In this document: positions 34,256 to 39,457 of the stretch, piece by piece
Layout of the letters: each line of letters starts with the position of its first letter
Position numbering within the stretch: the first letter of the stretch is position 1
Assembly: GCA_017617065.1 (NCBI GenBank)
Contig: JAFZWP010000013.1
Coordinates: forward strand, 248,001-312,000
DNA length: 64,000 nt
From: Bacilli bacterium
Lineage (GTDB): Bacteria; Bacillota_I; Bacilli_A; ML615J-28; CAG-698
Direction of reading: 5' to 3'
Made by a program: the position numbers and the translations under genes
The notes under the pieces: generated by a model
The model's database searches: none
The model's input: only the letters and a program-made list of their open reading frames with translations
What the model was told of the DNA's origin: nothing

Positions 34256-35425
34256 ATGAAAAAAATTAAACCAAGTTTTAAACAAAAATTTATGTATGGC
34301 TTTGATAAATTTAGAATGAAGCCATACATCAAACAAACATATTCTTTTAAGCCAACACCTCTTGATATAAGGGGGCCTTTTATTGTGGCATCTAGTAGAA
34401 TAAATAGTGCTGATCAATATTTAATAATGTTGTCTTTTAAAGAATATATTTATTTTACATTTAACGAAGGTGTATATAGAACTAATCCTGAGGTTGCTAA
34501 GAAACAAGATTTTTATGGTAACATTCCATACAAAATTGGTTATCCGATTGAATCATATAAAGATAAGCTTTTAGAAATTGTGAAGAATGGAAACAATTTA
34601 TGTATTTATCCAGAAATGTATACTAACTATTCAGGCGTTACTAGCCCAATAGATAAAAGCGTAGCTGAGATTATTAAAGAAGCTGGATGTACTCTAGTTA
34701 CATATTGTTTTACTGGTGGATATTTTACAGAGCCTGCTTGGGCTAAAGAAAAACGAAAAGGTTGGACAAACGGTCACATCGTTAATGTTTATTCTAAATA
34801 TGATTTAGAAAAAATGACAACTGCCCAAATTACTAATATTTTAGAAGATGACCTTAAAGAAGATGCCTACGCTAGACAATGCAATTCACCAATCACTTAT
34901 TCATGCGATCATTTAGCTGAAGGAATTGAAAATATCTTATATCTATGTCCTAAGTGTGGAGAGTATGATTCGTTTGTGGCTAGTGGCAAAGATTATAACT
35001 GCACAAAATGTGACACTCGAGGATCATACACTGACCAAGGGCTCATCCATGCCAATTTCAAGTTTAAAACTGTAACTGATTATATTAAATGGGAAGAAGC
35101 CCAAATTGATAGAATAGCCGATAGTGAAATCAACTTTAATGATAACGATATATCATTATCACAAATTAATGATGACCATTCACTAAAACTAATCACTACT
35201 GATAAATTGCATATAGATAAAGATGGAATGAGTGTTGGCTATCATACATTCTTATTTAATGATATTCAAAAAGTGGAAGTTGATGATAAAGCAACAACAT
35301 TAGTCTTTAGTCATAATAATGATTATTACAAATTATCTGGTCCAAACTTTAAACCATTAAAGTATCGTAAACTATTCTATAAACGTAAAGAAGCAATTAG
35401 ATTATATGGACTAGGTCCTAAATAA
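34256..35425 (+). CDS. PlsC-like acyltransferase paralogue with zinc ribbon, probably catalytically inactive
   Basis: The 389 residues align in layout with the 422-residue gene at 35938. The first 200 residues resemble an acylglycerolphosphate acyltransferase, but the catalytic H-x4-D is R48-INSA-D53 and the second motif reads YPEMYTNYSG. A zinc ribbon (about 235-262, CPKCGEYD ... CTKCDTRG) and a C-terminal domain of about 120 residues follow. Loss of the catalytic His suggests a binding, regulatory or partner role (inference). It is the only plus-strand gene in this part, and its terminator is shared with msrA. Confidence 0.7.
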   Translation: MKKIKPSFKQKFMYGFDKFRMKPYIKQTYSFKPTPLDIRGPFIVASSRINSADQYLIMLSFKEYIYFTFNEGVYRTNPEVAKKQDFYGNIPYKIGYPIESYKDKLLEIVKNGNNLCIYPEMYTNYSGVTSPIDKSVAEIIKEAGCTLVTYCFTGGYFTEPAWAKEKRKGWTNGHIVNVYSKYDLEKMTTAQITNILEDDLKEDAYARQCNSPITYSCDHLAEGIENILYLCPKCGEYDSFVASGKDYNCTKCDTRGSYTDQGLIHANFKFKTVTDYIKWEEAQIDRIADSEINFNDNDISLSQINDDHSLKLITTDKLHIDKDGMSVGYHTFLFNDIQKVEVDDKATTLVFSHNNDYYKLSGPNFKPLKYRKLFYKRKEAIRLYGLGPK

Positions 35426-35459
35426 AAATGATGTAACGAAAGTTACATCATTTTTTTCT
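35422..35459. terminator. Bidirectional terminator between the PlsC-like gene and msrA
   Basis: A 12-bp perfect stem (35426-35437 with 35442-35453) with a GAAA tetraloop and T run; the msrA stop codon lies inside it. Confidence 0.85.
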
Positions 35460-35936
35460 ACCAGATTTATTTAATTCTTCTTCAAATTCTTCAGGATTTT
35501 TTAAGTGATACTTTTGATGGTACTCTTCAGCTTCATAAAACACTTTAAACTTTTCAATAGCAATATATACTTTTTTATTAGTTTGCTGTTCTAATTCTTT
35601 TATTTGTTTAATAGCTTCTTCTTTTTCATCTATATCATTATAATATATTGCTAGTGTATAAGAATGACCTCTATCGATAAACTGACCATTTTCATCAAAT
35701 GGATCAACATTTTCCAAAAAGAATTGTAGTATCTCTTTATAACTAATAATAGTTTCATCATATATAACTTTAATAGTTTCACGATGAAGCGTTTTTTGAC
35801 TTTTAACTTCTTCATAAGTAGGACTAACTTCATCTCCACCTGAATAGCCACTAACTACATCAACGACTCCATTCAGACTAGATATAAATGATGCAATGCA
35901 CCAAAAGCAACCTCCTGCTAAATATGCATTTTTCAT
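35448..35936 (-). CDS. msrA: Peptide-methionine (S)-S-oxide reductase
   Basis: MsrA repairs oxidised methionine. The catalytic GGCFWC motif is at residues 8-13 and is followed by VVSGYSGG, then YHQKYHLKNPEEF near the C-terminus. The 162 residues are a standard length with no fused MsrB. It stands between the two PlsC-like/zinc-ribbon paralogues and starts right after the second one's stop, so they are probably co-transcribed. It ends with TGA. Confidence 0.97.
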   Translation of the reverse strand: MKNAYLAGGCFWCIASFISSLNGVVDVVSGYSGGDEVSPTYEEVKSQKTLHRETIKVIYDETIISYKEILQFFLENVDPFDENGQFIDRGHSYTLAIYYNDIDEKEEAIKQIKELEQQTNKKVYIAIEKFKVFYEAEEYHQKYHLKNPEEFEEELNKSGRKK

Positions 35937-35937
35937 A

Positions 35938-37206
35938 TTACGCTAATCCTTTAGGTAGATTGTTACCTTTATCGCGTTGATATTTAAAATATAATTCTTC
36001 AGTTGCTAGGGCCATCTTAGTTACATTAAATTTACCAGTTGGATAAATATACCAAGTATCATTAATTGTATTTAGATCAATACAATCTCCATGCTTGAAT
36101 AAGTATTGATATTCAATATGGACAGAGTATTGTGTTCTAGCATCTATTTCCATATTGAATTCATCACCATCTACATCTATTCCTTTTACTCTAAATCCAT
36201 TCATATCATGAATTAGCGTACCTTTTCCTAAATGGATGAATTTATTTTTTGGTAGGCTATCAACACTTACTTCTAGTTCACCACTAGAATATGTACCTTT
36301 TTCTACTTCTTCAGCTACACATTTTCTTTCCCATTCATACCAATCAGGAATATGAGTAAATTTATCTTCTCCATTAATACGTTTTAATTCACCCAAGGTA
36401 GTCATTTCCCATTTAGCGCCACAGTTTTTACATTCTAAAATAGTATCATGTGAATCCATTGAGTGTTCTTCCCCACAAGCAGGACATTTGTATAATACTC
36501 TATGCAATCCTTTAGCACGATTAGGATCATCAATGATGATACCTTTTTCTTTTTGCCATTTGAAATCATCATATTGGAATTCATCCACAATTCGCTTATT
36601 AATCTCATCAACTGATAAATCATTAACTTCTTGTTCTGTTAATAAAAGTTTATATGTAGCTTCCGTTCCAACCACACCCCTATCATGTGATGTATCCCAA
36701 AATGGTGAATTAACATGATGGCCATGACAAATTAAAGTAACTACAGGAACTTTTAAAAACTTAGCTAACTTTGCAAGGGAAGCAGGTAATACTGCTGTAG
36801 TTCCACATAAAGAATATCTAGCTTCTGGATATAATGCCACAACATTTCCCATGTTAATAGCTTTCTTTAAGTTTTTAATTAATACTAAATCATTAGTGAA
36901 TTTTCTTTTACAAATGCAGCCTACATCTCTAAGTAACCATTCTCTATTTAAATATCCATCAATTGCTACTACATAATTAGCTTCATTTTTGCCAAGTACA
37001 TATTCAGCTACTGAAAAATCAAAAAAGGCATTATGATTACAAAGTAGTAAAAATGGTGCTTTTAAGTCTTGCGTATTAACATAAGTAATAACTGGTTTAT
37101 GTTTTTTAATATTCCCATTTATAAGTAGTGGAATAAGTGGTTTTAAAAACCACTTTACTTTCCTTGGTGGAATAGACATATCAAATCTTTTAAATTCTTT
37201 TTTCAT
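35938..37206 (-). CDS. PlsC-like acyltransferase with zinc ribbon and C-terminal domain
   Basis: The 422-residue protein has an acyltransferase domain (about 35-200) with the intact H-x4-D motif CNHNAFFD (His58, Asp63) and YPEAR (127-131) in place of the usual F-P-E-G-T-R. A zinc ribbon follows (about 234-261, CPACGEEH ... CKNCGAKW) and then a roughly 150-residue C-terminal domain. It should transfer acyl groups to a lysophospholipid or glycolipid; the zinc ribbon is not part of ordinary PlsC. A degenerate paralogue lies at 34256. A second PlsC is fused to a glycosyltransferase at 59.9 kb. Confidence 0.8.
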   Translation of the reverse strand: MKKEFKRFDMSIPPRKVKWFLKPLIPLLINGNIKKHKPVITYVNTQDLKAPFLLLCNHNAFFDFSVAEYVLGKNEANYVVAIDGYLNREWLLRDVGCICKRKFTNDLVLIKNLKKAINMGNVVALYPEARYSLCGTTAVLPASLAKLAKFLKVPVVTLICHGHHVNSPFWDTSHDRGVVGTEATYKLLLTEQEVNDLSVDEINKRIVDEFQYDDFKWQKEKGIIIDDPNRAKGLHRVLYKCPACGEEHSMDSHDTILECKNCGAKWEMTTLGELKRINGEDKFTHIPDWYEWERKCVAEEVEKGTYSSGELEVSVDSLPKNKFIHLGKGTLIHDMNGFRVKGIDVDGDEFNMEIDARTQYSVHIEYQYLFKHGDCIDLNTINDTWYIYPTGKFNVTKMALATEELYFKYQRDKGNNLPKGLA

Positions 37207-37214
37207 AACTGCTC

Positions 37215-37631
37215 CTATTTTTTTGCATTATTAATAATGTCAATCATTTCTTTGGGAGTGACAACATAATTCCTTATTGGATAGTGCTTAATATTTCCTG
37301 TAATTAAGTAGGCATCCATTGTATTTCTTGCACTCATTACTATTTCGTAAAACACTATATCATCTTCATCAATGAAATCTTCTAAATATTGTTCCCTTTT
37401 TAAAACTATAGCATTCGCTCTGATATTATCGATTGTGTCTTTGACATCTTCTTCACTGAATCCGAATTTATTCCTAGTTAATACATCTATATATTCATTC
37501 AGTATTTCTTCATTCAAAAGTGGAACAATTATGTTACTATTTACTAGGTCTAAGATGGCCCCAGGAATTGAGTTATGCCTAAGCATAGATGATACAACAA
37601 CATTTGTGTCGATTACAGCATAATACTTCAT
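37215..37631 (-). CDS. PIN-domain toxin (putative toxin-antitoxin toxin, COG1569 type)
   Basis: The 138 residues form a PIN-domain ribonuclease with the acidic residues VIDTNVVVSS at the N-terminus, LNEEILNEY in the middle and NTMDAYLITGNIKHY near the end. PIN toxins cleave RNA in a metal-dependent way. Its start overlaps the stop of the RelB/DinJ-like antitoxin by 4 bases, the usual toxin-antitoxin layout. Confidence 0.88.
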   Translation of the reverse strand: MKYYAVIDTNVVVSSMLRHNSIPGAILDLVNSNIIVPLLNEEILNEYIDVLTRNKFGFSEEDVKDTIDNIRANAIVLKREQYLEDFIDEDDIVFYEIVMSARNTMDAYLITGNIKHYPIRNYVVTPKEMIDIINNAKK

Positions 37632-37921
37632 TTATTGATCCTTTTCCTTTCATCTCTAGCCTTTTTTATTTCTTCATTTATTTCATCTAAAGTCATTTCA
37701 GAATTACCATTATCTTCTGAGGTAGTACGCATTCTATCTATAGCAAGAATTGCCTTGAGTGTTGATTCATTAATCTTTGTATCAAATGGAATTCCACCAA
37801 CCAAAACAGACTTCTTAAAAAACATTCTTACCGCTGTAGAGAGATCTATTCCTAGTTCGCTATATATAGCTGTTGCCTGATTTTTCAATTCATCATCAAT
37901 TCTAACTTGTAAAACTGCCAT
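37628..37921 (-). CDS. RelB/DinJ-family antitoxin
   Basis: From the ATG at 37921 (GGAGGTG 6 bases upstream; the longer ORF begins in the operator) the 97 residues are a ribbon-helix-helix antitoxin: AVLQVRIDDELKNQATAIYSELG, split here after VRIDDELKNQA as the DNA-binding strand and helix, then LSTAVRMFF and IPFDTKI. The C-terminal third is charged and would wrap the toxin. RelB/DinJ antitoxins most often pair with RelE/YafQ toxins; here the partner is a PIN protein. Confidence 0.88.
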   Translation of the reverse strand: MAVLQVRIDDELKNQATAIYSELGIDLSTAVRMFFKKSVLVGGIPFDTKINESTLKAILAIDRMRTTSEDNGNSEMTLDEINEEIKKARDERKRINK

Positions 37922-37943
37922 TTTGCACCTCCACCATTCAATT

Positions 37944-37974
37944 ACATTATACACACATTGTATTACATTGTCAA
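37944..37974 (-). promoter_or_regulatory. Consensus promoter and phased operator repeats of the toxin-antitoxin pair
   Basis: TTGACA (37974-37969) and TATAAT (37951-37946) are 17 bases apart on the minus strand. Three ACATTRT repeats (plus strand, starting 37944, 37955, 37965) run across the promoter at 11- and 10-base steps, i.e. on one face of the helix, fitting autorepression by the RHH antitoxin. Confidence 0.7.
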
Positions 37975-37995: not shown

Positions 37996-38026
37996 GAAAA
38001 AAGAGAAGAAATTATTCTTCTCTTTA
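37996..38026 (-). terminator. Terminator of the sulfoglycolysis-type operon
   Basis: A 10-bp stem (38001-38010 with 38015-38024) with an ATTA loop and a minus-strand T run overlaps the stop of the last operon gene. Confidence 0.75.
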
Positions 38027-39457
38027 TTTACCTTTTACGGCTAACTTTACACATTCATATCCACCATCATAAAATCCTTTAGCTTTAAGATCATTAATTT
38101 GATTACAAATGTGGATTAATATTTCTTTATCCGATAACAATCTATCTAACATTGTGTTGATTGATTCTTTAGTTGGGCATTCGAATGTGGAATCGCCTTT
38201 TTCTCTACCATTGATAGCTCCATATACTTCATGGCCACCAATATGTCTCATGAATAATTTTGGAATTGGATAATATGCAAGTTCACTTGGTTTGGTAATT
38301 AATAAATCAGATACAGGCATAAGTAGGTTTGTAGAATATACTGCTTCAAAAATATTCTCATTATAAATTGAATAAATACCACTTACATCTTTATCTTTAA
38401 TATCTTTTGCAAATTCTTTTAATTTACTATATTCGTTAAAGAAATTGTTTGATTTAAAGTTACCAAGTTTTTCTTGTAACTTTTCATAAACAGTTTTATG
38501 GTCCCCAAAGTTAATAAATAACGCTACCCTACCTTCTTCAATATAAGGTAGTAAATGTTTAATCATAGCAAGATACATATCAAAACCAGCGCCAGCTCCA
38601 CCAACTGTCATTAGAATACGAACTGGTTTACCATTTTGCAATCTATCGACTCTTCTAGCATTATCATTTTCTAAATCAACTAATAATTCGTGATCTACAA
38701 AACAGCCTACCATCTTTAAATCTTCTTCTGGAATTCCTTTTAATGGTTTCTTATCAAATCCATTTAACATCTTATATCCTAAATAAGCAAATGGAGTTTG
38801 AACAGTATGAATAGCTCCTTCTGATAAATGTAAGCCCATTGGCCAGTTATCAGGTATAGCATTAACTACATGAGTTAGTCCTGCATGAATGGCACCTTGA
38901 GATGGCCATACATGAGTTGCAATGTATGGGATATCTTTAGGGATATTTCTAAAGATTGGTACTAATAATTCAGAATTCTTTTGGTCTTTCGCATTATATG
39001 AAATCTTTTTAAATCCTTCTGAATTTAATGGCTCCCAAACTAATTTATTAAATAATTTAGATTTTTGACTAATGCGAGAAGCTAGAGAATACATATCATT
39101 TTGTTCACGAATCATTTTTGATCCTGTAGCATCAAATGATGCTAAATCAAGCCAATATGGTTTGTAACCTAATGCTTTAGCACAACTTGCCATAGCAATA
39201 GAAATACGATAATGGCCAAATCCCATTCTGATATTACCAACAATTAGTGCGTTATCAGCAAATTTCTCATTTGACTCACCAAATACGATATTGCTAGCGC
39301 CTAAGAAATCTAGTGTATCGATATCTTTAAAACTAATTTTATAATCAGCATTTGAATCATCACCATATTTTTTAATATATTTTTGTTTACTTTTATTAGC
39401 ACCTTTTACAACTTTAGCACTCATTTCATTGCCAAAAATAACACTACTTTTGTCCAT
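38024..39457 (-). CDS. Uncharacterised GT-B-like protein (MurG/MGDG-synthase-like)
   Basis: The 477 residues contain an N-terminal MGFGHYRISIAMASCAKALG segment, like the G-G-x-G-H loop of MurG/GT28 glycosyltransferases, and a C-terminal half with MTVGGAGAGFDMYL and LLITKPSELAYYPIPKLFM, like the nucleotide-sugar-binding half of GT-B enzymes. I do not know a characterised member. It overlaps the GH36 gene by one base and is the last gene of the TetR operon. A glycosyltransferase or phosphorylase-like role on a sugar or glycolipid is possible, but the function is unknown. Confidence 0.55.
   Translation of the reverse strand: MDKSSVIFGNEMSAKVVKGANKSKQKYIKKYGDDSNADYKISFKDIDTLDFLGASNIVFGESNEKFADNALIVGNIRMGFGHYRISIAMASCAKALGYKPYWLDLASFDATGSKMIREQNDMYSLASRISQKSKLFNKLVWEPLNSEGFKKISYNAKDQKNSELLVPIFRNIPKDIPYIATHVWPSQGAIHAGLTHVVNAIPDNWPMGLHLSEGAIHTVQTPFAYLGYKMLNGFDKKPLKGIPEEDLKMVGCFVDHELLVDLENDNARRVDRLQNGKPVRILMTVGGAGAGFDMYLAMIKHLLPYIEEGRVALFINFGDHKTVYEKLQEKLGNFKSNNFFNEYSKLKEFAKDIKDKDVSGIYSIYNENIFEAVYSTNLLMPVSDLLITKPSELAYYPIPKLFMRHIGGHEVYGAINGREKGDSTFECPTKESINTMLDRLLSDKEILIHICNQINDLKAKGFYDGGYECVKLAVKGK

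Follow-up and report, generated by a model that had tools for sequence, protein, structure and literature searches.

A candidate lineage-specific pseudo-acyltransferase in an expanded Bacilli family of zinc-ribbon PlsC proteins

Bacterial PlsC-type enzymes are usually regarded as small housekeeping enzymes. In the stretch of DNA analyzed here (64,000 nucleotides, the window), from an uncultured Bacilli bacterium of gut type, two PlsC-like genes, whose products we call A and B, lie on either side of msrA, and a preliminary description proposed that they form an active/inactive pair in which A has lost its catalytic histidine. The locus raises the question of whether A is a dedicated partner of B, and of what a PlsC-like protein lacking this residue may be retained for. 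Our results point to A as a candidate lineage-specific pseudo-acyltransferase in an expanded zinc-ribbon PlsC family, a case less striking than the one first proposed.

Layout of the locus

As had been described, the two genes lie on opposite strands with msrA between them. The gene for A (34256–35425, forward strand) encodes 389 aa, comprising a PlsC-like domain from which the histidine is lost, a zinc ribbon and a C-terminal domain, and the gene for B (35938–37206, reverse strand) encodes 422 aa, comprising a PlsC domain (PF01553) with an intact H-x4-D motif, a zinc ribbon and a C-terminal domain. On B's strand, msrA (35448–35936, reverse strand; PF01625, E 1e-51; TIGR00401 above its cut-off) follows B directly, with one base between them, and the two are likely expressed as one transcript. 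A is convergent to this B-msrA unit. RNA folding placed a bidirectional, terminator-like hairpin of 14 pairs, with A/T tracts at either side, between the stop codons of A and msrA (35424–35455); its folding z values were -6.5 and -5.8, and a similar hairpin occupies the matching, orthologous site in the second species of the genus (z -7.1). Given the convergent arrangement and the strong hairpin that separates the two stop codons in each species, A and B are most likely transcribed as separate units.

The order lipoprotein, A, msrA, B is common to both species of the genus that we examined, and the flank around A and B is mostly syntenic between them, so that the adjacency of A and B is attributable to shared descent. 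Upstream of B, the window carries genes for a RelB-type antitoxin and a PIN-domain toxin (37215–37954), and the second species has a glutathione-peroxidase-like open reading frame in place of this pair (L039, 9114–9587). A gene adjoining the B locus (38024–39457) encodes a protein with DUF6937 and DUF6938 that is 93% identical across both species.

A PlsC family with a built-in zinc ribbon

Searching sampled genomes of the class with a profile of the family gave matches at E <= 1e-30 in 82 of 198; these genomes belong to about a dozen family-level groups and have up to nine matches each. The zinc ribbon, which had been considered unusual in an acyltransferase, is thus ordinary in this class, although neither Pfam nor NCBIfam holds a model for the combined PlsC, zinc-ribbon and C-terminal architecture. 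In the literature, we found no description of the family, whether as PlsC with a zinc ribbon, as PlsC-VTT fusions or as inactive PlsC paralogues, and no relatives were recovered from viral contigs scanned with two subfamily profiles or from a plasmid search. The genome under study has six members, namely A, B and four others located elsewhere (L002, L003, L004 and L005); a further copy at the end of another contig (L007) has the sequence of L002 and was counted as the same gene. Two generic PlsC-like open reading frames without a ribbon lie on contig C13 (L008). The closest solved structure to the family profile is 5KYM, a 1-acyl-sn-glycerol-3-phosphate acyltransferase of the PlsC/AGPAT type (PF01553), which matched at E 1e-11 over profile positions 9–188; its chain has 247 aa, and the match covers the acyltransferase part alone, without the ribbon or the C-terminal extension.

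The four-cysteine ribbon follows the PlsC domain in both A (C231-x2-C234 and C249-x2-C252; 34946–35011, forward strand) and B (C241-x2-C244 and C259-x2-C262; 36421–36486, reverse strand), and the cysteines align across all members of a diverse 22-sequence alignment, apart from one column set that the aligner shifted in L004. We collected 196 distinct family members and then aligned them. All four cysteines are present in 190 of these, and the remaining six have none of the four, with STES, STDS, DSSS or DTSS at these positions; no partial loss was seen among the aligned full-length members. This all-or-none pattern supports the idea that the ribbon binds metal as a unit, and gives indirect support to metal binding itself, which we infer for the family.

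Some members also carry an N-terminal VTT domain (DedA/TMEM41-type, PF09335), a lipid scramblase-type domain that A and B lack. It scored above the Pfam cut-off in all five of the proteins tested, which are about 620–710 aa long and combine VTT, PlsC, zinc ribbon and C-terminal domain; one is L004 of the same genome (contig C18, 1438–3345), and the others occur elsewhere (L025, L032, L038 and L068). Such fusions suggest that acylation may be coupled to the movement of lipids across the membrane.

Lost residues and conservation of protein A

Motif I of B reads LCNHNAFFDFS (H58 and D63; 37018–37035, reverse strand), and B shares with PlsC/AGPAT acyltransferases both this H-x4-D motif and the motif-III Pro-Glu pair (P127/E128). 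Its PF01553 score of 33.7 bits exceeds the curated cut-off of 23, and B is probably an ordinary, active member of a family clade other than that of A. Unlike the PlsC/AGPAT acyltransferases, A falls below this cut-off (15.3 bits, E 0.017) and lacks the histidine. Its motif I reads VASSRINSADQY (R48 and D53; 34397–34414, forward strand), an R-x4-D arrangement in place of H-x4-D that is found in both orthologues; both sequence and alignment confirmed the earlier reading of the two motifs. The tie of A to the PlsC domain was established through its relatives rather than by a direct Pfam match, and PF01553 was matched by all 22 family members scanned at E <= 0.05. In addition to R48, A has Ser in place of Asn at position 47, Y92 in place of the motif-II Lys, M121 at a motif-III position where nearly all other members have Gly or Ala, E138 in place of Lys, and Ile at position 98, where 98% of the family has Asp. 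It retains D53, P119, E120, G127 and all four ribbon cysteines.

The motif-I histidine is present in 194 of the 196 aligned members, and the two exceptions, both with Arg, are A and its orthologue. This frequency indicates that the arginine of A is no chance variation; it also rules out loss of the histidine as a family-wide trait. The orthologue (L010/L039) comes from a yak-rumen Bacilli MAG, the one further genome examined for the genus; the two proteins are 83% identical, and codon 48 is AGA in both. Because the second species was assembled separately, the loss is no sequencing slip. Elsewhere in the family, the dyad Asp is altered in five other members and the motif-III Glu in twelve, indicating that the active site has changed more than once. 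The twelve form a subgroup with Ala or Thr at the Glu position (APxGQ) and H-x4-D intact, and two members that keep the motif-I histidine (L056 and L086) have Thr or Ile at the dyad Asp.

A is under ordinary purifying selection. Its dN/dS was 0.096, compared with 0.065 for B, 0.098 for the L002/L041 pair of A's own clade, and 0.037–0.118 for the orthologue pairs of the other paralogues, and this measure of conservation after the histidine loss comes from two genomes and a single orthologue pair with dS near 1. Between the orthologues, the PlsC domain is 85% identical and the C-terminal part 84%; the PlsC domain is as conserved as the rest of the protein, so A is not drifting. No further A orthologues were found among 395 genomes of the class, where the next best matches were 27–30% identical, and a search of the genome contigs with A returned one orthologue alone. 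AlphaFold models of A and B, at an alignment depth of 4 (the window and L039), had mean pLDDT values of 43 and 46, respectively, too low for the models to be relied on.

Since PlsC-type acyltransferases use the motif-I His and Asp as a charge relay (PMC7613133, PMC10593935), the arginine and the other losses in A most likely abolish classical acyl transfer, and the purifying selection on A suggests that it is likely used in binding, whether of a lipid, an acyl donor or a partner. We postulate that A, conserved and restricted to the genus, is a probably non-catalytic PlsC-zinc-ribbon paralogue that acts in binding or regulation. It arose from a clade of family members of about 400 aa, diverging rapidly while the catalytic histidine and several other active-site residues were lost, and was afterwards kept under normal purifying selection. 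Transfer of the acyl chain would most likely have been lost; what is left of the fold would, along with the ribbon and the C-terminal domain, probably serve to bind a lipid, an acyl donor or a protein partner at the membrane, with A modulating an active paralogue or sensing a lipid.

Loss of the histidine alone is no proof of inactivity, because yeast Loa1 (Vps66), an AGPAT with a CX4D motif, has Cys at this position and yet is reported to be active as a lyso-PA acyltransferase (PMC7613133). Loa1 resembles A in that the histidine is replaced and the Asp kept; it differs in having Cys rather than Arg, in its reported activity and in being eukaryotic, and a zinc ribbon is unmentioned. It is conceivable, although rather unlikely, that A is still an enzyme of altered chemistry, in which Asp53, Glu120 and another residue would act on a different substrate by acyl transfer, transacylation or hydrolysis. 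In addition to the yeast precedent, the retention of Asp53, Glu120 and Gly127, the strong conservation of the PlsC domain, and the altered dyad Asp and motif-III Glu of other members, which may reflect a tolerance of active-site change in the family, are consistent with this possibility. However, the motif-II Lys and the nearly invariant Asp are also gone from A, and, on general chemical grounds, Arg is an implausible general base at the motif-I position.

Relationship of A to B and to the wider family

Homology between A and B was evident from blastp (E 1e-15, 24% over A105–280 and B113–293, 181 aligned positions). The C-terminal region of A (35024–35422, forward strand) matched that of the ~400-aa clade (hhalign probability 97%, E 1.8e-11), which in turn matched that of B's clade (probability 94%, E 1.2e-7), and a direct hhalign comparison of the C-terminal domains of A and B gave no significant match. 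By profile comparison, the C-terminal domain is common to A and B, demonstrable through intermediates only. Along with the blastp match and the aligned cysteines, these links uphold the view that both proteins share acyltransferase, zinc-ribbon and C-terminal domains. In a 123-row tree, A fell in a 40-row group with the ~400-aa members (SH-aLRT 99) that excluded B, and B was placed in a separate, widespread clade with sequences from genomes G006, G167 and G023. The stem branch of A is 2.32 substitutions per site long, followed by 0.22 between the two species, and its length makes the exact placement of A less certain. A forced A + B clade was 80 log-likelihood units worse and was rejected (p-AU 7.9e-6), which rules out a recent duplication of B as the origin of A. 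On this phylogeny, A and B are distant cousins rather than sister paralogues, and form no matched active/inactive pair.

Genes of B's clade, or near it, occur in seven other genomes (G006, G023, G167, G007, G010, G026 and G053). No A orthologue was found alongside them, and no msrA homologue was present among the neighboring open reading frames examined for such genes outside the genus. A was found twice only, each time beside B, so that the inactive copy was never seen alone; the active-looking copy is the one found by itself. The suggested co-conservation therefore holds from A to B in two genomes and fails from B to A in other genera, and neither an origin of A and B from one another nor obligate co-occurrence was supported.

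These observations make it very unlikely that A and B are a dedicated active/inactive heteromer, as the preliminary description had envisaged. Their adjacency in both species and the presence of B in both A-bearing genomes would be consistent with such a complex. However, this shared gene order is expected by descent in two species of one genus with a syntenic flank, A and B are not sisters, B's clade occurs elsewhere without A and away from msrA, and A converges on the B-msrA unit with a conserved hairpin between them. The shared architecture stands, as does a conserved member that has lost the catalytic histidine and further motif residues and is under purifying selection; the pairing with B does not. 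Nothing marks B out as the partner of A, and if A has a paralogue as its partner, L005 or L002 of the ~400-aa clade is, on phylogenetic grounds, no weaker a candidate than B. That A is instead a decaying pseudogene or an assembly artefact is extremely improbable, since the loss of several otherwise invariant residues and the very long branch are set against an intact, full-length frame in two species, the retained zinc cysteines, the shared AGA codon and a dN/dS value that largely rules out a pseudogene.

Beyond the reading of A as a probably non-catalytic paralogue, we tentatively raise a broader possibility, that an undescribed, multi-copy zinc-ribbon acyltransferase family of small-genome Bacilli, with some members fused to VTT, has yielded a conserved pseudo-acyltransferase that would regulate or scaffold active paralogues through its zinc-ribbon and C-terminal domains. 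The A/B pair itself matters less than had been supposed. The family is expanded and has a zinc ribbon built in, and a few of its branches have dropped catalytic residues and yet stay conserved, making it natural material for the study of non-catalytic uses of the PlsC fold.
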